Source of the DNA: a virus
IMG/VR virus record: IMGVR_UViG_3300046010_003177
Span: 1 to 20,867 of that record
Direction: 5' to 3' (one strand)
Length of the DNA: 20,867 bases
Position numbers and translations under genes: made by a program. The notes beneath the pieces were generated by a model. It did no database searches. It saw only the letters and a program-made list of their open reading frames with translations, and was not told the origin of the DNA. Below are positions 5,356 through 19,407 of the stretch, piece by piece; the stretch's first letter is position 1, and every line of letters begins with the position of its first letter.

Positions 5356-6248
5356 TGGCCTACGCAGCCTGGCAAGCCAGCACGAGCTATGCAGTCGGCG
5401 CCATCGTTCGCGCCACGACCACGCAGGCCAGCGGGCTGGTGTTCCGCTGCACTGTGGCCGGCACCAGCGCCAGCACACAGCCGGCATGGCCGACGGACAT
5501 CGGCAGCACGATCGCAGATGGCGGCGTCACATGGACAGCGATCAGCAGCGTTTATGAAGAGCTGGCGGTCCTGGGTCCGAACGCAATCATCGAGCTGTTC
5601 GAGCTGCAGCTTGACTCCACACTGCACGGCGCCAGTACCACCTACTACTGGCACAACGGCGTGAACGCAGCGGTGACAGGCAATATCGTGTTTGCCAGCA
5701 ACACCTACGTCAGGCTTCCGGTCGAGGCGACGGGCTTCGATTACACCAGCTCTGGCAGCCTGCCGCGTCCGACGCTGCGGATCAGTAACCTTTTCAGCGA
5801 CATGACCACGCTGCTGCTGCTGGTCAACGCGACCACACCCGGCAACGACCTGGGCGGCGCCACGGTCCGGCGGATCCGCACGCTGAAGAAGTTCCTCGAT
5901 GGCGAGGCAGCGGCTGACCCTAATGCTCGCTTCCCGACGGAGATCTGGTACGTCGACCGAAAGTCCAACGAGAACCGCGATCTGGTCGAGTTCGAGCTTG
6001 CCAGCAAGTTTGACCTAGCCGGCGTCATGCTGCCCCAGCGGCAAATCATCGCCAATGTCTGCCAGTGGAAGTATCGCGGCGCTGAGTGCGGCTACACCGG
6101 CAGCAATTACTGGAACGTCAATGATCAAGCTGTTGGCACGCTGGCTGCTGACGTTTGCGGCAAGCGGGTGGAGAGCTGCAAACTGCGGTTTGGGGCGACT
6201 GCTGAGTTGCCGTTCGGCTCCTTCCCCGGCGCCGGCCTGACCCAGTGA
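5355..6248 (+). CDS. Minor tail protein, lambda L-like, with extra N-terminal carbohydrate-binding-like module
   Basis: 297 residues; the start overlaps the M stop by one base (TAATG). Residues from about 75 onward follow lambda gpL: a P-R-P-T-L-R-I-S-N-L-F core and a C-terminal four-cysteine region. Cys236, 245, 268 and 275 have spacing C-x8-C-x22-C-x6-C, which to my recollection equals the ligand spacing of the iron-sulfur cluster in lambda gpL. The first 70 residues are extra compared with lambda L. They show W-Q-A-S-T-S-Y-A-V-G-A-I-V, F-R-C-T-V-A-G-T-S, then Q-P-A-W-P and D-G-G-V-T-W-T-A, a pattern of small carbohydrate-binding modules often fused to phage structural proteins. The protein should sit in the tail tip. 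The binding role of the extra module is inference. Confidence 0.92.
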   Translation: MAYAAWQASTSYAVGAIVRATTTQASGLVFRCTVAGTSASTQPAWPTDIGSTIADGGVTWTAISSVYEELAVLGPNAIIELFELQLDSTLHGASTTYYWHNGVNAAVTGNIVFASNTYVRLPVEATGFDYTSSGSLPRPTLRISNLFSDMTTLLLLVNATTPGNDLGGATVRRIRTLKKFLDGEAAADPNARFPTEIWYVDRKSNENRDLVEFELASKFDLAGVMLPQRQIIANVCQWKYRGAECGYTGSNYWNVNDQAVGTLAADVCGKRVESCKLRFGATAELPFGSFPGAGLTQ

Positions 6249-6961
6249 TGAAGCTGACCGACACGCTCAAGGCCGACATCCTGGTGCACGCGCAGGCCGA
6301 AGATCCCCGCGAGTGCTGCGGCTTGATCCATGTGGTCAAAGGCCGGCGCCGCTACTATCCCTGCCGCAACATCGCCGCTACGCCTGACGAGCATTTCATC
6401 CTTGACCCAGCGGACTACGCAGCAGCCGAGGATCTGGGCGAGATCGTGGCCGTGGTGCATAGCCATCCGGTGACGCAGCCAGTCCCATCAGCAGCGGATC
6501 AGATCGGCTGCAACAACAGCGGCCTGACGTGGGTGATCGTCAACCCCAAGACCGAAGCCTGGGGCGACTGCGAGCCTGCGGCGTTTGAGCTGCCCTACGT
6601 CGGCCGGGAGTTCGTGTTTGGCGTGGTGGACTGCTACTCGCTGGTGCGGGACTGGTATCACCGCGAGTGGGGCTTGACGCTGGCGGACTTCGACCGGCGT
6701 GATCGGTTCTGGGAACGGGGTGAGAACCTGTACCTCGACAGCTACCGCTCGCAGGGCTTCCGGCAGGTGCCGTTCGAGGAGCTGCAGTACGGCGACGCGA
6801 TCTTGATGCAACTATCGGCAAGCCTGCCCAACCACGCGGCGATCTACCTGGGTGATCAGCAAATCCTGCATCATGTACAGGGGCGATTGAGTAGCCGCGA
6901 CGTGTATGGCGGTTACTATGTCAAGAGCACTGCCATGGTCTTGCGGCATGAAAGTCGTTAA
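6248..6961 (+). CDS. Tail tip peptidase, lambda K-like (JAMM plus NlpC/P60 domains)
   Basis: 237 residues from ATG 6248, which shares a base with the L stop (TGATG); GTG 6245 is an alternative. The N-terminal half is a JAMM/MPN metallopeptidase-like domain with H71-S-H73-P, Ser81 and Asp84, matching H-x-H-x7-S-x2-D. The C-terminal half is an NlpC/P60 cysteine peptidase domain with catalytic Cys129 in VVDCYSLVRDWY and His196 in NHAAIYLG, followed by a HHVQGRLS segment. Both sets of key residues are intact. In lambda, gpK is needed for tail tip assembly. The NlpC/P60 fold is generally a peptidoglycan peptidase, and the JAMM domain a peptidase associated with ubiquitin-like partners. The next gene, an I-like protein, overlaps its end by 14 bases. 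Confidence 0.93.
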   Translation: MKLTDTLKADILVHAQAEDPRECCGLIHVVKGRRRYYPCRNIAATPDEHFILDPADYAAAEDLGEIVAVVHSHPVTQPVPSAADQIGCNNSGLTWVIVNPKTEAWGDCEPAAFELPYVGREFVFGVVDCYSLVRDWYHREWGLTLADFDRRDRFWERGENLYLDSYRSQGFRQVPFEELQYGDAILMQLSASLPNHAAIYLGDQQILHHVQGRLSSRDVYGGYYVKSTAMVLRHESR

Positions 6962-7598
6962 GGTCTACGGCGCACTTCGCAAGCGACTCGGACAGTGCCG
7001 GTTCGAGTTCGAGGTAGACACGCCTGCGCAGGCGATCAAAGCGTTGTGCGTCAACTTCCCTGGGCTGGAGCGCTGGCTGATCGACTCTGAGCAGACCGGA
7101 ATGGGCTTCCGCGTCACCGTCGGCAAGGAACGCATCACACAAGAGGATGCCAGCGTGGCTGTGCTGCCATGGTCCGAACGGGACGTGTTCAGCATTGCGC
7201 CGGTGGTGGCTGGTGCTGGGCAGGGCTTCGGGCAGGTGCTGGCTGGCATTGGCCTGGTTGCGTTGGCAATTATTGCCGGTCCTGCGGCTGGCGGCTTCCT
7301 TGGATTGGGTGCCGGTCTAGGCGGCGCTGGTGCAGGCTTGATCGGGGGCACTGCTGCTGTTGCCCTTGGCGGCATCGGCGCCAGTTTGGTCCTTGGTGGT
7401 ATTGCGCAGATGCTGTCCCCGCAACCCGACATCTCAGCACTGCAACGCGGCAAGGAAGCCGCCCGACTGGAGTCATTCAGCTTCAGCGGGATTGTCAACA
7501 CCAGCCAGCAGGGGATGCCGGTGCCGATCGTTTACGGCCGCGCTTTCGTTGGCTCGGCTGTCCTGTCTAGCGGCCTTGACGTGGCACAACTGAAATGA
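6948..7598 (+). CDS. Tail assembly protein, lambda I-like (ubiquitin-like fold family)
   Basis: 216 residues from ATG 6948. The frame is open upstream, but this start gives the family-typical N-terminus MKVVKVYGALRKRLG and overlaps the K-like gene by 14 bases. Residues 1-80 match the lambda tail I pattern (strand, FEFEVDTPAQAIKAL helix, FPGLERWL, FRVTVG, final strand), reported in the literature as a beta-grasp, ubiquitin-like domain. Residues 84-150 are very rich in Gly and Ala and hydrophobic, possibly membrane-inserting or a flexible linker. The tail ends in MPVPIVYGRAFVGSAVLSSG, as in other I-like proteins. Known role: needed for tail tip assembly but not found in the mature lambda virion. 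The stop overlaps the J-like start as ATGA. Confidence 0.9.
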   Translation: MKVVKVYGALRKRLGQCRFEFEVDTPAQAIKALCVNFPGLERWLIDSEQTGMGFRVTVGKERITQEDASVAVLPWSERDVFSIAPVVAGAGQGFGQVLAGIGLVALAIIAGPAAGGFLGLGAGLGGAGAGLIGGTAAVALGGIGASLVLGGIAQMLSPQPDISALQRGKEAARLESFSFSGIVNTSQQGMPVPIVYGRAFVGSAVLSSGLDVAQLK

Positions 7599-10500
7599 CG
7601 CAGCTCCAAGGTTCCGGTGGCGGCGGTGGTGGCGGTGGATGCTTCCTGGGGCACACGTTGGTGCGCACGCCTGACGGGCAGCGTCGCATCGATGAGCTGC
7701 AGGCTGGCGATCAAGTCCTGAGCTTCGATGACAAGGGCACGCTGCACGAGGCGACGATCCTGAAGGTGCATGAGCACCTGAACGAACGCGTCTATCGCTA
7801 TCAGCTTTGGGGCGGCGCGTCACTGGATGCAACCCCGAATCACTGGGTGCTGAACCAGTTCAATGCCTTTGTTGCGATCGGCACCCTTGGCGCTGATGAC
7901 TGCTTGGTGGACGAGAACAATCACCTGCGTCCCATCGTTGGCCGTGAAGAGTTACCTGCTGGCACGGTCTACAACCTGACTGTCGAGGGGCACCACACCT
8001 TCATCGCTGGCGGTATCCGCGTTCACAATGCCGGCCTCGGCGTGCTGCAAGGCGCAGGTGGCGGCGGCGGTGGCAAAGGTGGCGGTGGCACAACCCACGT
8101 CCCATCAGAGGCTGATGACAGCCTGCAATCAGTCCAATTTGCCAGTGTCCTTGACCTGATCAGCGAGGGCGAGATCCAAGGCATCGAGAATGGGGTGCAG
8201 GGCATCTACCTGGATGGGACGCCAGTCCAGAGCAGCAGCGGGATTGACAACTTCACCGGTTACACCGTCGTCACACGCACCGGCACGCAGGCGCAAAGCT
8301 ACATCGCCAACACCAACGGCATCGAGTCTGAAAAGGCTGTCAACGTCGAGATCACCGCTGCTGCATCCGTCACGCGGCAGATCACCGACTCAGATGTGGA
8401 CCGCGCCCGCATCACCGTCCAGGTGCCAGCACTGCAGATCATCGAGGATGACGGCGACATCATCGGCCATAGCGTCAGCATCCGTTGCAGGGTGCAGTAC
8501 AACGGCGGCGGCTACACGACCGTCTTCGAGGACACGATCAGCGGCAAGACAACCAACGCTTACCAGCGCGATTACATCATCGCCCTGAGTGGTGCGTTCC
8601 CGGTTGACATCAGGTTGGAGCGCATCAGCGCTGATGAGACCAGCGCCCGCCGGCAGAACCGCACCTTCTGGTTCAGTTACACCGAGATCATCGACGAGAA
8701 GTTCAGGTATCCCAACAGCGCACTGGCGTTCCTGCGTTTTGACAGCCGCCAGTTCAAAGGCATCCCAGCCCGCAAGTATCTGGTGCGTGGCATCAAGGTG
8801 CAACTGCCGAGCAACGCCACGGTTGACACGACCACCTACCTCGGCCGCGTCACCTACAGCGGCGTCTGGGATGGCACCTTCGGCGCTGCTACCTGGACCA
8901 ACGACCCGGCCTGGTGCCTATGGGATCTGCTGACCAACACCCGCTATGGCGCCAGCATCCCGGCCAGCAGCTTGGACCGGTATGACTTCTACGCGATCAG
9001 CCAATACTGCAACGCGCTGGTCAGCAACGGTCGCGGCGGGCAGGAGCCACGGTTCAGTTGCAACATGCTGATCAACAGCAGGGACGAGGTCTACAACGTC
9101 ATTCAGGAGTTCGTTGCGCTGTTCCGTGGCATCGCCTACTACGGCGCCGGCGCCATGGTGGTGCTGCAGGACAAGCCATCTGATCCGCAGTATCTGCTGA
9201 CTCCCGCCAACGTGGTCGATGGGCTGTTCAACTACAGCGGCTCATCGCAGAAGGCGCGGCACACCACAGCAACCGTCGCTTACCAGGATTACGACAACCT
9301 GGGCGAGGTGTCCTACGAGTACGTCGAGGATGCGTCAGCCGTCGCCAAGTACGGCATCATCAACAAGGACATCAAGGCAGTCGGCTGCTACTCGCAAGGC
9401 CAAGCGCATCGTGCTGGTAAGTGGGCACTGTTGTCAGAGCAGAACCTGACCGAGACCGTCACCTTCTCAGTGTCGATTGACTCGGGCATCGTGCTACGCC
9501 CTGGCATGGTGATCGACGTGGCCGATCCGGTCAAGGCTGGCAGCAGACGCGGTGGTCGCATCGCAGCAGCAACAACCACGACCGTCACGCTGGACGACGC
9601 CACCGGCATCACGCTGGGCACCTCGCCCACAATCAGTGTCCTGCTGCCCACCGGCTTGGTCGAAACCCGTAGCGTTAGCACTCTGGCTGCTGGCGTGGTC
9701 ACGGTCACGAGCGCGTTTAGCGAAGCGCCCAACGCCCAAAGCATCTGGGTCATGGAGAACACCAGCCTGCAGACGCAGCAGTTCCGTGTTGTCAGCGTGG
9801 CCGAGGCTGAGGATGGCATCTACGGCGTGACGGCGCTGGCCTACAACAGCAGCATCTACGCTGCGATTGAGTCAGACATCAAGCTGCAGACGCGGGACAT
9901 CTCCAATTTGTCCGCACTGCCTGAGTCGCCCACCGGCCTGACTGGCACGGAGCACCTCTACACCGATGGCCAGAACGTCCGCACCGCCTTTGAGCTGAGC
10001 TGGGTGCCGCCCACGCAACTGGTGCAGTCCTACCGGGTGATCTATCGACTCGGCAATAACAACTTCTCGCAGATCGACACCAACAGCCCCAGCACCCGCA
10101 TCGAGGGCTTGGACGCTGGCACGCTGCAGGTCCGGGTGCAGTCGATCAACAGCCTCGGCGGCGTCAGCAACCCGGCAACGGCGACCTTCAACCTGATCGG
10201 CAAGACCGAGCCGCCTGGCAACGTCCAGAACCTGACCATCGAGCCGATCAGTGCCAACAGCGCCCGCCTGCGCTGGGATGCCACGGTTGACCTGGACGTG
10301 CGCGTTGCTGGCCGTGTCCACATCCGCCACACCAACCTGACTGATGGCACCGGCACCTGGAGCAACAGCGTTGACCTGATTCCTGCAGTCGCTGGCTACA
10401 GCACCGAGGCGATCGTGCCACTGGTGGAGGGTCAGATCCTGGTCAAGTTCGAGGATGACGGAGAGCGTCAGAGCCCAACTGAAGCGAGCGTGATCGTTGA

Positions 10501-11332
10501 CTTCCCGGATGCGCTCGGCAACCTGCTGGTGCAAAGCCGCCGTGAAGATGCTGACACGCCGCCGTATCAGGGCAGCAAGACCAACGTCTTTTACAGCGAA
10601 GAGTTCGACGCGCTGGTGCTTGACGGTGACGCGCTGTTGGACGCCATCGCTGACTTTGACCTGATCAGCAGCATGGACTACCTCGGCGCCGTGCAGCCGC
10701 TGGGGACCTACGAGTTCCTCAACACGCTCGACTTGGGCGCATCCTATGCCCTTGACCTGAGCCGCTTCTTTGTCACTGCTGGCTTCTTCCCGAACGATCT
10801 GGTGGATAGCCGCACCGCATTGGTGGATGACTGGGCAGATTGGGACGGCGGCATTATCGATCAGGTCAATGCCAAGCTGTACCTGCGCCGCACGCCTGAC
10901 AACCCAAGCAGCTCGCCCACATGGTCCGGCTGGCAGGAGTTCGTCAACGGCACCTTCTTGGGGCGCGGCTTCCAGTTCAAGGCAGAGCTGATCAGCAACA
11001 ACACAGCGCAGAACATCCTGATCGACCAGCTCGGCTACGAGGCCACCTTCCAGCGCAGGACTGAGCAGTCGGTTGGGGCGGTCAGCAGCGGCGCTGGCAC
11101 GAAGGCGGTCACGTTTGACAAAGCGTTCTTCACTGGTACCGCACTGCTCGGTGGTCTGAATGCCTACCTGCCCAGCATCGGCATCGTGGCGCAGAACCTA
11201 GCGACAGGCGACTACTACAACGTGACCAACGTCACCAGCAGCGGCTTTGACGTGACGTTCAGAAACAGTGCTGGCACTGCAGTGAGCAGGAACTTCCTAT
11301 GGACTGCGGTGGGATTTGGCAAGGGCGCTTAA
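7595..11332 (+). CDS. Tail tip / host specificity protein, lambda J-like, with embedded Hint (intein-like) domain
   Basis: 1245 residues. After a glycine-rich start, residues 16-145 form a Hint domain (separate entry). From about residue 169 the sequence is lambda gpJ-like: SLQSVQFASVLDLISEGEI, then Q-N-R-T-F-W-F-S-Y-T-E-I-I-D, PAWCLWDLLTNTRYG, and GQAHRAGKWALLSEQNLTET. Residues about 775-970 look like two fibronectin type III domains (LSWVPP with YRVIYR, and LRWDATVDLD with HIRHT). The C-terminal 250 residues are strand-rich and would carry the receptor-binding function. gpJ forms the central hub and fibre at the tail tip and sets host range. The start overlaps the I-like stop by four bases. 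Nothing suggests a broken gene: the frame is intact throughout. Confidence 0.95.
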   Translation: MTQLQGSGGGGGGGGCFLGHTLVRTPDGQRRIDELQAGDQVLSFDDKGTLHEATILKVHEHLNERVYRYQLWGGASLDATPNHWVLNQFNAFVAIGTLGADDCLVDENNHLRPIVGREELPAGTVYNLTVEGHHTFIAGGIRVHNAGLGVLQGAGGGGGGKGGGGTTHVPSEADDSLQSVQFASVLDLISEGEIQGIENGVQGIYLDGTPVQSSSGIDNFTGYTVVTRTGTQAQSYIANTNGIESEKAVNVEITAAASVTRQITDSDVDRARITVQVPALQIIEDDGDIIGHSVSIRCRVQYNGGGYTTVFEDTISGKTTNAYQRDYIIALSGAFPVDIRLERISADETSARRQNRTFWFSYTEIIDEKFRYPNSALAFLRFDSRQFKGIPARKYLVRGIKVQLPSNATVDTTTYLGRVTYSGVWDGTFGAATWTNDPAWCLWDLLTNTRYGASIPASSLDRYDFYAISQYCNALVSNGRGGQEPRFSCNMLINSRDEVYNVIQEFVALFRGIAYYGAGAMVVLQDKPSDPQYLLTPANVVDGLFNYSGSSQKARHTTATVAYQDYDNLGEVSYEYVEDASAVAKYGIINKDIKAVGCYSQGQAHRAGKWALLSEQNLTETVTFSVSIDSGIVLRPGMVIDVADPVKAGSRRGGRIAAATTTTVTLDDATGITLGTSPTISVLLPTGLVETRSVSTLAAGVVTVTSAFSEAPNAQSIWVMENTSLQTQQFRVVSVAEAEDGIYGVTALAYNSSIYAAIESDIKLQTRDISNLSALPESPTGLTGTEHLYTDGQNVRTAFELSWVPPTQLVQSYRVIYRLGNNNFSQIDTNSPSTRIEGLDAGTLQVRVQSINSLGGVSNPATATFNLIGKTEPPGNVQNLTIEPISANSARLRWDATVDLDVRVAGRVHIRHTNLTDGTGTWSNSVDLIPAVAGYSTEAIVPLVEGQILVKFEDDGERQSPTEASVIVDFPDALGNLLVQSRREDADTPPYQGSKTNVFYSEEFDALVLDGDALLDAIADFDLISSMDYLGAVQPLGTYEFLNTLDLGASYALDLSRFFVTAGFFPNDLVDSRTALVDDWADWDGGIIDQVNAKLYLRRTPDNPSSSPTWSGWQEFVNGTFLGRGFQFKAELISNNTAQNILIDQLGYEATFQRRTEQSVGAVSSGAGTKAVTFDKAFFTGTALLGGLNAYLPSIGIVAQNLATGDYYNVTNVTSSGFDVTFRNSAGTAVSRNFLWTAVGFGKGA
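7604..8089 (+). repeat. Glycine-rich direct repeat flanking the Hint domain
   Basis: Left copy 7604-7639 encodes LQGS followed by eight glycines. Right copy 8045-8089 encodes LQGA, then six glycines, Lys and four glycines. The DNA copies share GGTGGCGGCGG but differ at many third positions, so they are similar rather than identical. The 390-base Hint coding segment lies between them. This could reflect insertion into a glycine-rich linker with duplication, or independent drift of a low-complexity tract. Confidence 0.6.
7640..8029 (+). other. Hint / bacterial intein-like autoprocessing domain inside the J-like protein
   Basis: Codons 16-145 of the J-like protein (130 residues). Block A starts with Cys16 in CFLGHTLVRTPDGQRRIDEL followed by AGDQVLS. 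Block B is LDATPNHWVL with the T-x-x-H motif. The C-terminal blocks are VYNLTVEGHHTFIAGG and IRVHN, ending in His144-Asn145 followed by Ala146. Cys1, block B His and terminal His-Asn are the residues needed for N-S acyl shift and Asn cyclisation in inteins. The +1 residue is Ala, not Cys, Ser or Thr, as in bacterial intein-like domains of type A. No homing endonuclease is present. Cleavage after Asn145 would leave a glycine-rich N-terminus resembling that of ordinary J proteins. Activity is not shown by sequence. Confidence 0.88.
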
Positions 11333-15667: not shown

Positions 15668-15853
15668 ATGCAGGCGTTCATCGTCGAGGTCAAGGCCACC
15701 GTTGTGGTGCGCTCAGACGCTGACCCTGAGAACCTACCCGCTGATGTCTACAGCCGCATAGCGGAACACGTTCACGACGACGACGACATCCTGAGCCTCG
15801 AGGTTCAGGCCATGCCCCTGCCGCCGGATCTCAGTGGACAAAGCGCACATTGA
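15668..15853 (+). CDS. Small hypothetical phage protein
   Basis: 61 residues from ATG 15668. It starts MQAFIVEVKATVVVRSDADP, followed by a helix and an Asp-rich run (HVHDDDDIL), then a strand. The strand-helix-strand order resembles small ferredoxin-like or sensor-type phage proteins, with no assignable family. Its end overlaps the start of the HNH nuclease gene by 20 bases, so the two are probably co-translated. An AGGAGG at 15617-15622 lies too far upstream to serve this start. The 15589-15667 gap contains no convincing promoter. Confidence 0.55.
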   Translation: MQAFIVEVKATVVVRSDADPENLPADVYSRIAEHVHDDDDILSLEVQAMPLPPDLSGQSAH

Positions 15854-16187
15854 TGGCACCAGGCTCGTCACTCGACGCTCAGCGCGCGATCAGGTCCTAC
15901 TCGCCTGGAACTATCGCTGTGCCTACTGCGGCGATGCGCTAGGCCGCAGCCCGACGCTCGACCACGTCATCCCAAAGGTGCACGGCGGCCTCACCGTGCG
16001 CTCGAACATGGTCGCCTGTTGCCTCGGCTGCAACAGCCGAAAAGGTCACAAACCATGGATCGATTGGTATCGCGCCCAGCCGTTCTGGTCAGCGTTCAGC
16101 GAATGGGCGATCGCGCAGTGGCTAGGGCAGGATTTTGCTCAGCAGCAGGATGACCAGGGCACAGATCAGCCAATACATGGCGGCTAA
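15834..16187 (+). CDS. HNH endonuclease
   Basis: 117 residues from GTG 15834. The HNH fold is clear: Cys29-x2-Cys32 (CAYCGD), Asp43-His44 in TLDHVIPKVHGG, Asn58 in SNMVACC, Cys63-x2-Cys66 and Asn67 in CLGCNSRKG. The two C-x2-C pairs would bind a structural zinc, and His44 would act in DNA cleavage with a divalent metal. Free-standing HNH proteins in phages either serve packaging next to terminase genes or are homing nucleases; no terminase is visible here, so the role is open. The C-terminal 40 residues are Trp- and Gln-rich. The last 66 bases overlap a possible tiny gene on the other strand. Confidence 0.88.
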   Translation: MDKAHIDGTRLVTRRSARDQVLLAWNYRCAYCGDALGRSPTLDHVIPKVHGGLTVRSNMVACCLGCNSRKGHKPWIDWYRAQPFWSAFSEWAIAQWLGQDFAQQQDDQGTDQPIHGG

Positions 16188-16202
16188 GTAGACCAGTGTC
16201 AT
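16122..16202 (-). CDS. Very small membrane peptide
   Basis: 26 residues, MTLVYLAAMYWLICALVILL followed by LSKILP. Almost the whole peptide is one hydrophobic helix. Its ATG overlaps the stop of the upstream gene (16199-16372) as ATGA, which matches the pattern used throughout this leftward block and supports translation by coupling. Its 3' part runs antisense to the end of the HNH gene. Too short for confident annotation. It may be a regulatory or toxic membrane peptide, or simply chance. Confidence 0.4.
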   Translation of the reverse strand: MTLVYLAAMYWLICALVILLLSKILP

Positions 16203-16372
16203 CGCGCTAGCAGGTGATCCAGATACAACTCAGCCTGCCATAGGTCGCTCGAATAGCGGCACATACCGTGGGCACAGCTGCGGTAGTACAGCTCCCCGCC
16301 GCCTTCTGGCTCTAACGTCTCGATCCAGCCGCCATCGCGGTCAATACGGCTCAGCACCTGCGCTTCGCTCAT
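16199..16372 (-). CDS. Small hypothetical phage protein
   Basis: 57 residues from ATG 16372. The sequence opens MSEAQVLSRIDRDGGWIETL and continues with an acidic Gly-rich turn, YYRSCAHGMCRYSS and a C-terminal helix (DLWQAELYLDHLLAR). The two cysteines five apart and the W-I-E-T-L strand give it the look of a folded domain. It overlaps its upstream neighbour by 32 bases and the downstream peptide by ATGA. Function not recognised. It belongs to the leftward block of small early-type genes. Confidence 0.6.
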   Translation of the reverse strand: MSEAQVLSRIDRDGGWIETLEPEGGGELYYRSCAHGMCRYSSDLWQAELYLDHLLAR

Positions 16373-16550
16373 GGCCGCTGATCCAGTCCTTCAGCTCGAT
16401 CACATACTGCCGCAGCTGTTCGGCTTGCAGCAGATGCCAGCGGTCGCCGGTCTGGAAAAACAGACGGTTGTGCCGATCGATCGCGGCTAGGCATTCCTTG
16501 ATCAGAGGGCACCACGGCTCACGCGTGGCGGTTACCCATTCGCGCGGCAT
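16341..16550 (-). CDS. Small hypothetical phage protein
   Basis: 69 residues, starting MPREWVTATREPWCPLIKEC and continuing with helical stretches (LAAIDRHNRLFFQTGD, LLQAEQLRQYVIELKDWI). The composition, with many Trp, Arg and charged helical residues, suggests a compact all-helical protein. It overlaps the upstream Cys-rich gene by 19 bases. I recognise no family. Regulatory or host-takeover roles are typical of genes in such positions but cannot be claimed. Confidence 0.6.
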   Translation of the reverse strand: MPREWVTATREPWCPLIKECLAAIDRHNRLFFQTGDRWHLLQAEQLRQYVIELKDWISGHERSAGAEPY

Positions 16551-16867
16551 GGCTGGAACATCTCACAGCGCGGCGCATAGCGGCCGCCGCTGCGCTTAGC
16601 TTCCGGCAGGTTTAGGTCGCACCCCTGGATGCGCATGTCCCATTGCAGGCAGTCCCAGCACATGCGCGGCGCATCAGCAGGCCGCAGCTGCGTCACCGCC
16701 ATGCGGTAGACCGATTGCGCCCGCTCGAGCGCCGTGGGCAAGTGGACGGTGCCTGTATCAGTCTTGATCTGCAGCTCAGGCTTTGGACCCAGCACGACAT
16801 GAGCCTGCCAGTTGCGGGAGCTGCAGGTGCACACCAGCAGCAAACGGCCGGCGTACAAGCTGATCAT
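16532..16867 (-). CDS. Cysteine-rich small phage protein, possible metal binder
   Basis: 111 residues; ATG 16867 overlaps the upstream stop as ATGA. The N-terminus is strand-like (MISLYAGRLLLVCTCSSRNW). The C-terminal 45 residues hold a cysteine cluster: MCWDCLQWDMRIQGCDLNLP and then YAPRCEMFQPC. Cys spacing C-x2-C-x9-C followed by C-x5-C could bind zinc or an iron-sulfur cluster. The middle helix (PTALERAQSVYRMAVTQLRP) is amphipathic. I do not recognise a named family. The Cys motif strongly suggests a genuine folded protein. Confidence 0.65.
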   Translation of the reverse strand: MISLYAGRLLLVCTCSSRNWQAHVVLGPKPELQIKTDTGTVHLPTALERAQSVYRMAVTQLRPADAPRMCWDCLQWDMRIQGCDLNLPEAKRSGGRYAPRCEMFQPCRANG

Positions 16868-17109
16868 TCGCGTTCGCCGTAGGACGGCTGGTGATAGATG
16901 CGCTCAAGCTGCATCGACAACGGCTCGTCATCGTCTGGCATGAGCAGCAGATCCTCAGCGATCACCATGGCCAGCTCGTCATCCTCGAGCGCCGACCATG
17001 AGATCAGGGTGCTGTTGACCGGTTTGGCAATGACCAGCGCCATCCGCGGGCTGCGGTGCAAAAGCCGCAACGCCCAGCGCTCGAGCCAGTTGAGGTGGGG
17101 CAGTTTCAT
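16864..17109 (-). CDS. Small hypothetical phage protein
   Basis: 81 residues from ATG 17109, chosen because it overlaps the upstream stop as ATGA; an earlier in-frame start at 17145 is less likely. The sequence begins MKLPHLNWLERWALRLLHRS, a basic amphipathic helix. It then has MALVIAKPVNSTLISWSAL and an acidic helix with DDDEP. The design of a basic N-terminal helix followed by an acidic half could suit a membrane-surface or nucleic-acid-mimic protein, but no family is recognised. It is in the same overlapping transcription unit as its neighbours. Confidence 0.6.
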   Translation of the reverse strand: MKLPHLNWLERWALRLLHRSPRMALVIAKPVNSTLISWSALEDDELAMVIAEDLLLMPDDDEPLSMQLERIYHQPSYGERE

Positions 17110-17318
17110 GGCTCCATGGTGCCGATAAGGCGGTCCAGATACCACCGGGCTTTCTTTAAGGATTCGGGATCCTTGTGCTGCTCGCGCCAGACGTACTTCA
17201 GCACGTTGCCTTTGCAGAATCCCCTGAACTCATCAGGCGTCAGCGCTGCGGCGATCGCGTCGATGCACTCGATCTCGCTTTGGTTGTAATGGTCGGGATG
17301 GTTGATCAAATCAGACAT
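17106..17318 (-). CDS. DUF3310 family protein
   Basis: 70 residues from ATG 17318, with GGAG seven bases upstream and an 8-base overlap with the previous gene. Motifs N-H-P-D-H-Y-N near the start, I-E-C-I-D-A-I, and FCKGNVLKYVWREQHKDP followed by L-K-K-A-R-W-Y-L-D-R-L-I are diagnostic of DUF3310. This is a small helical family widespread in phages and sometimes annotated as a nucleotide kinase-like protein. The biochemical role is not settled; there is no P-loop here. Length fits the domain alone. Confidence 0.9.
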   Translation of the reverse strand: MSDLINHPDHYNQSEIECIDAIAAALTPDEFRGFCKGNVLKYVWREQHKDPESLKKARWYLDRLIGTMEP

Positions 17319-17535
17319 GCCCCAGCTCCATGGCGCGGTCGCGCGTGAAGTCGTCAATGGTCTGCACGCAAGCAGCCACGTTGTAGATAACGTCGCTGTC
17401 AGGCGATGGTCCTTTGCGTCGATAATGCTCGCCAGGTTTGAGCCGGCCAGACTCGCGCCACCGGCGCAACGTGCGTACAGAGATGCCTAGCTCGCGAGCC
17501 GTCTGATGGCTCGACATCCAACGGATCAAAGCCAT
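17311..17535 (-). CDS. Helix-turn-helix DNA-binding protein (MerR/excisionase-like)
   Basis: 74 residues from ATG 17535, which has GAGGGG at good spacing and overlaps the upstream gene by ten bases; ATG 17574 is an alternative. Residues about 8-30 (HQTARELGISVRTLRRWRES) form a clear helix-turn-helix of the winged type, followed by a wing-like turn (GRLKPGEHYRRKGP) and a strand I-Y-N-V, as in excisionase and MerR-like small regulators. It probably regulates this operon or acts as a DNA architectural factor. No integrase is in view to support a strict excisionase role. Confidence 0.75.
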   Translation of the reverse strand: MALIRWMSSHQTARELGISVRTLRRWRESGRLKPGEHYRRKGPSPDSDVIYNVAACVQTIDDFTRDRAMELGHV

Positions 17536-17795
17536 TTGCCCCTCAGCAAAAACTGCCGGCAGATGCGGATGCATTGCTGCGCGTGCTTATCGGCCAGATG
17601 GCTCTCGGCCTCGCCAATCGCCAGCACGCAGGCGGCATGAAGGTCGGCGTAATCGGTGTCGCGGAAGTTAGCAGCGATGTCGCGGCTGAACTCCTGCCAC
17701 AGCCCGGTGTAGGTGCCGCAGGTGCGGCCGCTCGCATGGTAGAGCGCTTCAAGCATGTCCGAGCGTTGCTGTTCGAGTTGGCTGCCGTTCAGCAT
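17526..17795 (-). CDS. Small hypothetical phage protein
   Basis: 89 residues, mainly helical: LEQQRSDMLEALYHASGRTC, then TGLWQEFSRDIAANFRD, and YADLHAACVLAIGEAESHLA followed by a basic C-terminus QFLLRGKWL. The start overlaps the stop of the previous gene by seven bases. The regular helical pattern suggests a helical-bundle protein. No family recognised. Part of the leftward small-gene block. Confidence 0.62.
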   Translation of the reverse strand: MLNGSQLEQQRSDMLEALYHASGRTCGTYTGLWQEFSRDIAANFRDTDYADLHAACVLAIGEAESHLADKHAQQCIRICRQFLLRGKWL

Positions 17796-17992
17796 GGTTC
17801 GAGGGCTTGGCGGATCCTGAGCAGTTCAGCGCAAATCGCGCTTACCTGCGGCACGGTAGGACCGCTCCGCAGCTCGTCCACCCTTGCAGTTAGCAACAGC
17901 TGCAGCCGACGGCGTTCTTCGAGCTGGCCGGCGTTGAACATGCTCGAGTCGCTGATGAGAGCCTCGAGCTTGGCGCGGATGTGGTCGGTCAT
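17789..17992 (-). CDS. Small helical hypothetical protein
   Basis: 67 residues with a strong ribosome binding site (GGAGGT, seven bases before ATG) and ATGA overlap with the upstream gene. The sequence MTDHIRAKLEALISDSSMFN, then Q-L-E-E-R-R-R-L-Q-L-L-L and VSAICAELLRIRQALEPC is helical with heptad-like leucines, probably a short coiled coil or helical hairpin. Function unknown. The strong ribosome binding site is unusual in this block and may raise expression from this point downstream. Confidence 0.62.
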   Translation of the reverse strand: MTDHIRAKLEALISDSSMFNAGQLEERRRLQLLLTARVDELRSGPTVPQVSAICAELLRIRQALEPC

Positions 17993-18228
17993 GGCAGCAC
18001 CTCCACCGTTGCGTTCGGCCAGCGGTTCTGGGCGTACCGCAGCGCGTGGCGTTTGGTCTCTGCCTGCGTGATCCAGACCATCGGCTGGGTGTGTGCTTTG
18101 CGCACCAGCACGCGGTACTCGCGCGTCTGAGCGCCATGCCGCGGGCGGCTGATGCCTTCGCCGTGTTTGCTGTCGTCTGGTTCTTCATGCCATGCCCAAG
18201 GGAGCATCGCGCCGATCGTGTCACTCAT
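17989..18228 (-). CDS. Small hypothetical phage protein
   Basis: 79 residues from ATG 18228, which overlaps the upstream stop by eight bases; a longer reading from 18309 is possible but would overlap the neighbour extensively. The N-terminal part is low-complexity and polar. The C-terminal half has EYRVLVRKAHTQPMVWITQA, then a helix with A-L-R-Y-A-Q-N-R-W-P-N-A and a final strand VEVLP. This resembles a strand-strand-helix-strand unit seen in many small phage proteins that transform an A-x2-A-x2-RWP helix. Function unknown. Confidence 0.6.
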   Translation of the reverse strand: MSDTIGAMLPWAWHEEPDDSKHGEGISRPRHGAQTREYRVLVRKAHTQPMVWITQAETKRHALRYAQNRWPNATVEVLP

Positions 18229-18397
18229 GGGTTGCAGGGTCGGTGACGGTTTCAGGGTTGAGCCATTCGATCTCAGACCACCACGGCAGCCAACCGGACT
18301 GCTCGGCAATCTGTTTGGCTTCGGTCAGGGTGTGCGCCGTGATCGCCTCGATCACGTTGGCGCTGCGGATCTGGAAATAGAAGCGGCGGGGAGTCAT
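18221..18397 (-). CDS. Small hypothetical phage protein
   Basis: 58 residues from ATG 18397, coupled to the upstream stop as ATGA. It begins MTPRRFYFQIRSANVIEAIT, then TLTEAKQIAEQSGWLPWWSE, and ends in a polar tail. The strand-helix-strand arrangement with T-L-T-E-A-K-Q-I-A resembles the C-terminal unit of its downstream neighbour (strand, A-E-T-K-R-H-A-L helix, W-P), so the two may be related small-domain proteins. Function unknown. Confidence 0.6.
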   Translation of the reverse strand: MTPRRFYFQIRSANVIEAITAHTLTEAKQIAEQSGWLPWWSEIEWLNPETVTDPATHE

Positions 18398-18537
18398 GGC
18401 TTCAGCCCCTGATGGCAAGCGGGGTGATTGTGATGCGCTTCGGCGGCTTGATCACGGCCGACGCTAATGCCGACGGCATACATCATGAACAGCAGCGCCA
18501 GGGCGGCGAAGCGGTTGATCCAAGGATTAGTGGTCAT
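18394..18537 (-). CDS. Small membrane protein
   Basis: 47 residues from ATG 18537; an in-frame ATG at 18603 would overlap the upstream gene and encode an unlikely proline-rich leader. One transmembrane helix is clear (NRFAALALLFMMYAVGISVG), preceded by a short polar N-terminus and followed by a His-rich tail (EAHHNHPACHQ) that could bind metal. No ribosome binding site is visible, and a stable hairpin lies just upstream. Function unknown. Confidence 0.55.
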   Translation of the reverse strand: MTTNPWINRFAALALLFMMYAVGISVGRDQAAEAHHNHPACHQGLKP

Positions 18538-18558
18538 GGTGGTGTGGGTGATAGTGGG

Positions 18559-18586
18559 GAGCCCCGGAGGGCTCAGAGGTGAGCCC
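18559..18586 (-). other. Two mutually exclusive RNA hairpins sharing one arm, one with UCCG tetraloop
   Basis: In the leftward RNA the order is GGGCUC (18586-18581), ACCUCU, GAGCCC (18574-18569), UCCG, GGGCUC (18564-18559). The middle arm can pair with either side, giving a 6-bp stem with a 6-base loop or a 6-bp stem closed by C(UCCG)G, a member of the very stable UNCG tetraloop class. The stop codon of the upstream gene (18575-18573) spans the junction. Possible attenuator, processing site or translation insulator. There is no U-tract, so a simple terminator is unlikely. Confidence 0.5.
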
Positions 18587-18743
18587 CGCAGGTGGCGATC
18601 CATCGCTGGAGTTCGCCATGACGACGGCTCAGCTCCAGATAACGGCCTGGATCCTTGTGGGGCAGGGAGCCGCGCAGCTCCTGAGCAATGTCGTGAGCCT
18701 CAGCGTTGAACTGAGCGATCAGGGTGATGATCTGCTCCTGCAT
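18573..18743 (-). CDS. Small helical hypothetical protein, first gene after the leftward promoter
   Basis: 56 residues from ATG 18743, with GAGG about 12 bases upstream. The sequence MQEQIITLIAQFNAEAHDIA, then Q-E-L-R-G-S-L-P-H-K-D-P-G-R-Y-L-E-L-S-R and HGELQRWIATCG is helical with regular hydrophobic spacing, and it looks like a helical hairpin. It is the first gene after the sigma70-like promoter at 18799-18827, so it may be the first early product of this unit. Function not recognised. It ends within the paired-hairpin element. Confidence 0.6.
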   Translation of the reverse strand: MQEQIITLIAQFNAEAHDIAQELRGSLPHKDPGRYLELSRRHGELQRWIATCGAHL

Positions 18744-18798: not shown

Positions 18799-18827
18799 AC
18801 AATACACCGTAGACGGCGTGCTGTCAG
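18799..18827 (-). promoter_or_regulatory. Candidate sigma70-type promoter for the leftward small-gene block
   Basis: On the minus strand, -35 CTGACA (18827-18822, 5 of 6 consensus bases) and -10 TATTGT (18804-18799, 4 of 6) are separated by exactly 17 bases. Transcription would start near 18792 and enter the 56-residue gene at 18743. The -35 box overlaps the stop codon of the upstream zinc-ribbon gene, so it sits in the only sizeable gap of the leftward strand between 18744 and 18823. Confidence 0.55.
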
Positions 18828-19171
18828 CCCCGGCTGTTGTGATCCGTTACATTGCGCCGCAGTTCGGCAGCCTCCGATCTTCGACGGTTGGCGTCCAGCA
18901 GGTTCTGGATTGAGTCCTGCGCTTCTTCATGGCTCGCCCCGATGCGGACCATGCCAGTGGTCACCTCAGCCGGCACGCGCAGAACGGGCTTCCGCTGGAG
19001 GCCTGACGACCAGCCGACCGCATACTTGGGCACCTCTACCTCGACCGTGAACCAGACATGGCCACAGTCGCCACAGACACGCTTGCGAACGATCTGATCG
19101 TCCATCTGGCCATTGGTGACCGGGACCTTGTGGTTCTTGCTGCGACAGTCTGGGCAAATCATGGGCAACAT
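18824..19171 (-). CDS. Zinc-ribbon protein (NrdR/Ogr-like N-terminus)
   Basis: 115 residues from ATG 19171; ATG 19162 would start directly at MICPDC. The N-terminal 45 residues contain C-P-D-C and C-G-D-C-G-H separated by about 25 residues with Q-I-V-R-K-R-V before the second pair and WFTVEVEV after it. This is a four-cysteine zinc ribbon laid out like the N-terminus of NrdR and like Ogr-type phage activators. No ATP-cone follows. The C-terminal half has a helix with A-Q-D-S-I-Q-N-L-L-D-A-N-R-R-R. It is probably a DNA- or RNA-polymerase-binding regulator; its target is unknown. Its gene is divergent from 19192-19407 with a palindrome between them. Confidence 0.72.
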   Translation of the reverse strand: MLPMICPDCRSKNHKVPVTNGQMDDQIVRKRVCGDCGHVWFTVEVEVPKYAVGWSSGLQRKPVLRVPAEVTTGMVRIGASHEEAQDSIQNLLDANRRRSEAAELRRNVTDHNSRG

Positions 19172-19191: not shown

Positions 19192-19407
19192 ATGGACTTC
19201 GGGAAATGGATGCAGGTCGAGATCCCAGCAGAGCGGCTGTTCAAACTTGAAAGCAACTGCCGCGGCCTGGCCGAACATGGCACCGTCGGCAAACTGGCAG
19301 CGCAACTGCTACGGCAGAACTACCGCCAGCAGGAAATGCTCCAAGCGGCGGTCCATGAGATCGCGCGCCTGGAGCTGATGATCATGAATCAGAACACGTC
19401 GGCCTGA
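19192..19407 (+). CDS. Small hypothetical protein, isolated rightward gene
   Basis: 71 residues from ATG 19192; an in-frame ATG at 19210 has GGGA upstream and is an alternative. The sequence MDFGKWMQVEIPAERLFKLE, then A-E-H-G-T-V-G-K-L-A-A-Q-L-L-R-Q-N-Y and a long helix with A-A-V-H-E-I-A-R-L-E-L-M looks like a folded, mostly helical protein. It is the only rightward gene between leftward genes and converges with the next one, overlapping it by 19 bases. The opposite strand has no better frame here, which supports it. Function unknown; a regulator opposing the leftward unit is conceivable. Confidence 0.55.
   Translation: MDFGKWMQVEIPAERLFKLESNCRGLAEHGTVGKLAAQLLRQNYRQQEMLQAAVHEIARLELMIMNQNTSA

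Follow-up and report, generated by a model that had tools for sequence, protein, structure and literature searches.

An array of thirteen small genes (g1 to g13), read leftwards on the minus strand of the virus record IMGVR_UViG_3300046010_003177 from IMG/VR, is built as a fixed backbone with exchange slots, where whole genes are swapped at a few set positions. The DNA analyzed is the full record, 20,867 nucleotides (nt) long and hereafter called the window; IMG/VR places it in the topology class "linear", which often denotes a fragment. Tail genes and a lysozyme/peptidase gene occupy its left part, on the plus strand; on the right, a RecT-like gene is accompanied by small genes, and most of these lie on the minus strand. 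DNA similarity in a phage collection leads to Synechococcus phages, save for one stretch shared with a Pantoea phage. Judged by its sequence, the record is a relative of the Synechococcus siphophage S-CBS3, and its host is probably a blue-green alga of the Synechococcus type. The reading we favor, with a probability of roughly 60%, is that the array is an operon whose genes are coupled in translation, that it serves phage DNA and nucleotide metabolism, and that its slots take up accessory genes.

Conserved backbone and exchange slots

Relatives of the array were collected from IMG/VR with several of its genes. The search with g10 gave 117 confirmed relatives and the search with DUF3310 (g8) at least 588, with 80 being kept from each, while one profile-based scan each with g6 and g10 found 526 and 500 relatives, of which 80 each were kept. 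Recurrence was counted by tblastn in 162 loci, a set that includes the window copy and a few contigs entered twice. In this set g6, g9 and g10 recur in 89 loci each, g5 and g12 in 83, g3 in 80, g11 in 75, g4 in 55, g13 in 51, g2 in 47, g7 in 16 and g1 in 7; DUF3310 is found in 158, a count due in part to the 80 loci that were collected by DUF3310 itself. The original prediction had staked the frames on their conservation in relatives, and they do recur there, g1 and g7 being the least widespread. Loci found by sampling to have an identical 800-nt stretch in common were merged into one, which gave a nonredundant set of 102 loci with g6 and a downstream backbone gene. In only two of these does the backbone order differ, each having an additional g10-like hit ahead of g5. 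The backbone consists of g3, g5, g6, g8 to g10 and g12, often joined by g4, g11, g2 or g13.

The overlaps between neighboring genes are conserved as well, as judged in 80 loci that hold at least six of g1 to g13. The 4-nt overlap of g9 and g10 is present in 80 of 80 loci and that of g12 and g13 in 45 of 46; g8 and g9 overlap in 78 of 80, g5 and g6 overlap by 7 or 4 nt in 69 of 70, and the 4-nt overlap of g2 and g3 is found in 35 of 41.

Three positions stand apart from this order. Slot A lies between g6 and g8, slot B between g3 or g4 and g5, and slot C upstream of g3. A gap of at least 110 nt separates g6 from g8 in 98 of 100 loci, g4 from g5 in 32 of 73 and g2 from g3 in 11 of 58, and occurs in 0 to 2 loci at each of seven other junctions. 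Slot A content was listed for the 102 nonredundant loci. A ribbon-helix-helix (RHH)-like gene is the commonest cargo (59 loci, followed in 6 by a Dcd-like gene and in 1 by another gene), ahead of a helix-turn-helix (HTH)-like family (12), ThyX (9) and the window's HTH gene (6). The S-CBS3 gp26 family alone fills the slot in 4 loci, a multi-gene cargo starting with a DPBB protein in 4 and a further small family in 3; five rows are single. Pfam matches support the names Thy1 (8.2e-46), DCD (3.6e-27) and DPBB_1 (2.6e-16). The HTH-like label rests on Pfam matches below the cut-off, and the RHH-like label on a reading of the sequence that Pfam does not confirm.

Three of the five single rows carry no true cargo of this kind. 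L148 is an unrelated locus and was excluded from the gap counts and from the codon counts at the end of g6. The cargo listed for L184 is g8 itself, so its slot is empty; g8 there starts 4 nt inside g6, and the overlap is thereby re-formed. In L297 there is no cargo, and g8 is missing its first 43 positions. Removal of these three leaves 99 loci with slot A cargo. A g7 profile was tried as a locus marker and dropped, since its first residues are g6 sequence read in antiphase and match other loci.

In slot B there is either no gene besides g4, or a protein of 63-65 amino acids (aa) that we call X, or other genes, among them one with an NrdR-type zinc ribbon (Pfam 4.1e-09) and, in S-CBS3, a sigma factor. 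In L173 and L175 a g10-like hit lies between g4 and g5, inside slot B; the Cys-rich g10-like module may travel as cargo too. Just upstream of the array, the window itself carries a 115-aa protein with an NrdR-type zinc ribbon at its N-terminus (18824-19171, minus strand; Pfam 3.2e-07).

Coding evidence for the thirteen frames

The original prediction described thirteen leftward frames of 26-111 residues between 18743 and 16122, with nearly every start overlapping the preceding stop. All thirteen ATG frames are present as described, and 11 of the 12 junctions overlap. The remaining junction, g1 to g2, has a spacing of 35 nt, and an alternative earlier ATG for g2 at 18603 would overlap g1. Overlaps measure 4 nt at g2/g3, g4/g5, g8/g9, g9/g10 and g12/g13, 7 nt at g5/g6, 8 nt at g3/g4 and g7/g8, 19 nt at g10/g11 and 32 nt at g11/g12. 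At g6/g7 the overlap is 10 nt with the likely g7 start at 17535, or 49 nt with the upstream ATG at 17574.

At a G+C content of 60.5%, which favors long open frames, such an array could be an artefact of an open, G+C-rich strand. Two tests refute this for the array as a whole. First, chains were built from ATG frames of at least 25 aa whose junctions overlap by 0-35 nt. The longest, with 13 members, spans all of the array (2622 of 2622 nt), for which it needs the earlier g2 start, whereas the longest chain in 200 dinucleotide shuffles spans 1204 nt, less than half of the array, and that on the antisense strand 566 nt. Second, for pairs differing at no more than 30% of sites, the true frame has a ratio of nonsynonymous to synonymous substitution rates (dN/dS) of 0.14-0.34, the lowest of six frames in 13 of 13 genes; another pair filter gives 0.19-0.48. 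These runs omit odd-length sequences, sequences with stops and pairs past the distance limits. The antisense frame rev1 also has a low dN/dS (0.30-0.57), as is expected where third codon positions line up. With 3 pairs, g1 is the least tested gene; g7 has 22. By the chance and coding tests alike, the dense and poorly characterized array of the original prediction is made of real genes.

The slot A junction and exchange of cargo

The start of slot A cargo is usually part of the gene before it. In the window, the g7 ATG (17535-17533) consists of the last base of a g6 Lys codon and the first two bases of a Trp codon. An ATG or GTG start lies 4-10 nt inside g6 in 100 of the 101 listed slot A loci, in 87 of them at 10 nt, and both cargo ends overlap their neighbors in 94; without L148 and L184 the figures are 99 of 99 and 93 of 99. 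The start at 10 nt is made of the last base of the codon before the near-terminal Trp of g6 plus the first two bases of that Trp codon. This Trp is preceded by Lys in 70 of 101 loci, by Arg in 22 and by Gly in 3; in the other 6 it is located at least one codon deeper inside g6. Where the preceding residue is Arg, 14 of 22 cases use CGA, which makes up 6.4% of the Arg codons elsewhere. A second candidate start at 4 nt is present in some loci, among them the window, where it is TTG, so that the true slot A start is a matter of choice.

Exchange at this boundary can be followed between close relatives. In six pairs of loci that differ in cargo and share 88-95% of their g6 DNA, identity continues up to the last g6 codons and then drops; on the right side, the first g8 codons vary with the cargo, most clearly in RHH-like loci. 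Close relatives thus carry unrelated genes at one position, with identity breaking at the boundary, as expected of a mosaic. On a tree of g6, g9 and g10 from 95 loci (a quick search, with L175, L055 and L101 on long branches), at least 18 changes of the first cargo are needed among 10 states, of which the empty slot is one. Taken singly, ThyX requires 6 changes, all forced by starred branches, RHH-like cargo 13 (11 forced) and the window's HTH 3 (2 forced). Cargo labels are still clustered, as label shuffles give 37.6 changes, so inheritance matters too.

One possible hypothesis is that g6 acts as a built-in expression dock, its Lys/Arg-Trp end (RTGG) being kept partly as the newcomer's start codon. 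We offer this tentatively and would not bet on it.

Expression model

Directly observed are the reading frames and their conservation, the overlaps, the slots, the matches of the cargo and its swaps among close relatives. From these we infer a model that extends to co-transcription, restart of translation, timing, the route of recombination and every biochemical function. The array would belong to a single polycistronic operon, which siphophages of the Synechococcus type probably express in the DNA-replication phase. A ribosome ending one gene would restart on the next at the start/stop overlap, which would tie protein amounts together without separate ribosome-binding sites. Recombination within the backbone genes on either side, in which the RecT-like protein perhaps assists, would replace whole genes at slots A, B and C. 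An incoming slot A gene would usually borrow its start from the Lys/Arg-Trp end of g6, and its stop would overlap the DUF3310 start, so that the chain would rarely be broken.

Precedent for such coupling exists: among 14 overlapping gene pairs assayed for termination-reinitiation in Haloferax volcanii and Escherichia coli, 13 were strictly coupled (PMC6728339). The array shares with those pairs the ATGA-type overlaps, a structural signature of coupled translation; whereas coupling was assayed in those pairs, in the array it is predicted from the overlaps. Pairing with the anti-Shine-Dalgarno sequence averages -3.7 kcal/mol at array starts versus -3.2 kcal/mol at random sites, and a promoter and terminator scan gave results at or below chance.

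Several points weigh against the operon model or parts of it. Transcription and translation of the operon are predicted from sequence. The genes g5 (-12.9 kcal/mol), g8 (-7.1) and g3 (-7.0) have strong sites of their own and could start independently, and 20 other listed window positions, one of them without a start codon, look similar by eye in anti-Shine-Dalgarno pairing, so the pairing does not single out coupling. At 18827-18799, close to where the array begins, there is a promoter-like site, but 2 such sites were found where 1.6 are expected. The right-hand cargo overlap is absent in six loci (L072, L075, L076, L077, L161, L218); the separation is one base in L072, L075, L076 and L077, 47 nt in S-CBS3 and 71 nt in L218. 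Five of the 22 Arg codons before the g6 Trp (four CGT, one CGC) give no ATG or GTG there. The loci are related to each other, so that counts overstate independent events.

The assignment to nucleotide metabolism has difficulties of its own. The g8 product aligns only to the DUF3310 part of T7 gp1.7 (122-184 of 196) and lacks about 120 N-terminal residues. Most slot A cargo belongs not to nucleotide metabolism but to DNA-binding types or to families without known function: the 99 cargo loci comprise 59 RHH-like (6 with a Dcd-like gene behind), 12 HTH-like and 6 with the window's HTH, beside 9 with ThyX. Finally, a Dcd-like gene is found elsewhere, on the other strand, in at least 29 of 80 loci (flanks are cut), so the slot position is not needed for Dcd.

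Nucleotide metabolism or host takeover

A role in nucleotide metabolism is suggested because DUF3310 is a domain of gp1.7 and because ThyX and a dCTP-deaminase-like protein occur among the cargo of slot A. DUF3310 is reported to be implicated in the nucleotide kinase activity of T7 gp1.7. The g8 product is 37% identical to gp1.7 residues 122-183 over 62 columns; on sequence grounds we class it with the DUF3310 proteins and do not call it a gp1.7 kinase. T7 gene 1.7 is alike in carrying DUF3310 and in overlapping the next gene by 8 nt. It is unlike the array in that no secure match to the other array families was found in T7, in a comparison that covered Gp2 and gp1.7. ThyX and an adjacent Dcd-like gene would fit a supply of dTMP. 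Overall, with moderate confidence, we read the array as serving nucleotide and DNA metabolism plus regulation, with exchangeable accessory genes.

The original prediction suggested that such arrays often encode host-takeover or anti-defense proteins. In that case, the small proteins would bind host proteins and inhibit them early in infection, and the slots would hold variable counter-defense genes. The size and density of the genes, their lack of known domains, the sigma factor in slot B of S-CBS3 and the turnover of slots between close relatives all agree with this. Four mycobacteriophage proteins with a DUF3310 domain are, in addition, highly toxic on overexpression (PMC11797047), but those with a size given are bigger than g8 (141 aa, 208 aa and 735 nt, against 70 aa). 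The backbone, however, is under purifying selection, and most of it is conserved and not turning over like an arms-race island, exchange being found mainly at the slots. Recognizable cargo consists of DNA-binding-type proteins, nucleotide enzymes and a DPBB protein. No anti-defense match emerged from PADLOC, a library of defense, not anti-defense, models, in which array proteins gave nothing below E 0.01 save g7 (mad1 2.8e-07, MTase_II 0.0079). Host takeover is a possible and serious rival, though we consider it rather unlikely; from the original prediction it retains weak support, in the form of DUF3310 toxicity and a noise-level likeness of the g4 model to T7 Gp2.

That likeness raises a more specific alternative, in which g3 and g4 would be Gp2-like inhibitors of host RNA polymerase, clamping the enzyme with a strand-strand-helix-strand fold and standing near DUF3310 as in T7, where the gene order is 1.7-1.8-2. 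The g4 model, usable over approximately residues 31-79, compares with T7 Gp2 in its polymerase complex at a TM score of 0.65 by target and 0.45 by query. It superposes with a root-mean-square deviation (rmsd) of 1.8 over 47 columns, with YkzG among the matches. The Foldseek E-value is about 1, however, Z is below 5 and unrelated ribosomal and PurS chains tie with Gp2; a superposition with 44 aligned residues (rmsd 1.7, Z 4.1) is likewise tied by unrelated chains. In the sequence test, T7 Gp2 scores 4.8 bits on the g3 profile, a value attained by 6 of 1000 shuffles, but the g10 score is attained by 5 of 1000, as rare as g3, and that of g4 by 92. Against a Gp2-family profile, the g3 score is matched by 9 of 150 column shuffles and that of g4 by 40 of 150, and g10, which is not thought to be related, outscores g3. 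Neither g3 nor g4 matches Pfam RNA_pol_inhib (PF16857), which T7 Gp2 itself does. A homologue of g4 does lie between the RNA polymerase and exonuclease genes of the uncultured T7-like phage MedDCM-OCT-S38-C3. We regard the Gp2 alternative as improbable, the likeness of g3 and g4 to T7 Gp2 being a weak lead.

The hint in the original prediction that the array arose by duplication of a strand-helix-strand unit found no sequence support. For such a tandem origin one can cite the predicted strand-strand-helix-strand of g4 and a similarity by eye between g3 and the slot B protein X. An all-against-all profile-profile comparison nevertheless reaches a best probability of 11% (g10 and g12, over 15 columns), with 0.15% for g3 and g4 and 0.2% for either of them with X. 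A shared small fold does not imply duplication, and we consider this origin very improbable.

Features of the individual genes

With the operon reading retained as the preferred one, Table 1 lists the array genes and the slot A junction together with the RecT-like gene. That only DUF3310 and an HTH protein are recognizable, as originally predicted, holds for Pfam, where g7 matches HTH_17 at 9.1e-07. NCBIfam, run on 9 of the 13 proteins (all but g1, g2, g7 and g13), named none above its cut-off. Sequence searches against solved structures gave best E-values of 0.033 for g12, 0.098 for g6 and 1.3 for g8, and nothing up to E 1 for g4 and g10.

Table 1. Genes of the array and related features in the window (positions counted from the first letter of the window; aa, amino acids)
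Feature	Position	Strand	Length	Remarks
g1	18573..18743	-	56 aa	Rare family, 7/162 loci including the window copy; dN/dS 0.25
g2	18394..18537	-	47 aa	Hydrophobic segment; dN/dS 0.34
g3	18221..18397	-	58 aa	Matches phrog_22131 (PHROG of unknown function)
g4	17989..18228	-	79 aa	Strand-strand-helix-strand predicted in second half
g5	17789..17992	-	67 aa	Backbone; follows slot B in relatives
g6	17526..17795	-	89 aa	Backbone; last codons contain the start codon of the next gene
Slot A left junction	17526..17537	-		End of g6 AAATGGCTTTGA; g6 stop 17528-17526
g7	17311..17535	-	74 aa (87 aa from 17574)	Slot A cargo; HTH protein
g8	17106..17318	-	70 aa	DUF3310; Pfam 1.7e-20, 73.2 bits versus cut-off 24
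g9	16864..17109	-	81 aa	Backbone
g10	16532..16867	-	111 aa	Invariant Cys C70, C73, C83, C101
g11	16341..16550	-	69 aa	Absent in some relatives
g12	16199..16372	-	57 aa	Strongest constraint, dN/dS 0.14; S-CBS3 gp25
g13	16122..16202	-	26 aa	Single hydrophobic segment
RecT-like annealing protein	20624-19941	-		Right part of the window

For g1, neither Pfam nor PHROG gave a match. The hydrophobic segment of g2 makes it a likely membrane protein. Homologues of g3 occur in the cultured phages S-CBS1, S-CBS3, KBS-S-2A and S-H1. The invariant cysteines of g10 perhaps form a metal site, as judged from their conservation; its AlphaFold model has a mean pLDDT of 65.6, with most of the Cys part below 50, and no convincing structural match was found for it. 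A search of 50,697 phage records with g10 returned 0 matches at E 0.01, and protein searches of phage records with two further queries, g9 and the RHH-like cargo, returned zero. Where g11 is missing, g10 directly overlaps g12 in 23 of 24 loci. At the far end, g13 overlaps a convergent HNH gene (15834-16187, plus strand) by 66 nt in antisense; an overlap in antisense is present in 40 of the 51 loci where both were found. Hosts or prophages were also sought: two GTDB genome scans, one using g12 and the other the g6 family, yielded no confirmed relative.

Elsewhere in the window, the gene for a tail-tip protein J-like product (7595-11329, plus strand) has a Hint/intein-type domain near its N-terminus, behind a poly-Gly stretch (Pfam Hint 2.7e-07 and PT-HINT 3.2e-06; Intein_splicing, at 2.6e-05, is below the cut-off). 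A tail assembly protein (6245-6958, plus strand) joins a JAB-type peptidase to an NlpC/P60 domain. A plus-strand frame of 71 aa (19192-19407) lies inside the minus-strand block, between the zinc-ribbon gene and a 125-aa gene, and has no PHROG match.

Comparison with known systems and significance

Among cultured phages, S-CBS3 comes closest. Its genes gp30 to gp24 (NC_015465) follow the order g3, sigma factor, g5, g6, slot A gene, g12 and HNH, and gp26 in slot A starts 4 nt inside the g6 homologue. It differs in the gap behind the slot A gene, and g1, g2, g4, g8 to g11 and g13 were not found in it by profile. The parts of PMC6157547 that were consulted contain no mention of this layout. KBS-S-2A has g3 and a part-match to g6, while S-CBS1 and S-H1 have g3 alone of the array within the fetched stretches. 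In S-H1 (L309, 4081-4728), downstream of the g3 homologue, ThyX overlaps the preceding gene by 8 nt. That gene reads as HTH-like from its sequence, and the ThyX overlap echoes slot A in a cultured phage.

Replacement of a single gene with breaks close to the gene boundaries has been described for gene 65 of mycobacteriophage Brujita (PMC3029335), and there, as here, such breaks leave the neighbors intact. Unlike in Brujita, the array re-uses one position many times inside an overlapping chain, and its swaps mostly keep both overlaps, the cargo starting within the gene upstream. Exchange of genes at their boundaries is a known process; the new feature is a re-used slot that mostly preserves overlapping junctions. 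Titles and abstract openings of the open-licence literature yielded no description of the array or its slots.

As a phage operon, the array looks ordinary but is well conserved. What were unknown microgenes become a system that can be tested part by part, with its fixed core, its set places for swaps and its start codon lying in the upstream gene. Families without a Pfam match, such as g6 and g10, become approachable, g6 by way of cultured S-CBS3, and the differing cargo of close phages (HTH, ThyX, RHH-like) provides matched sets for guessing function. If g6 is indeed a dock, a newcomer in slot A would at once be translated in step with the operon, and phages would try regulators and nucleotide enzymes one at a time. 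The slots are a natural experiment in how phages add genes to an operon without losing control of its expression.

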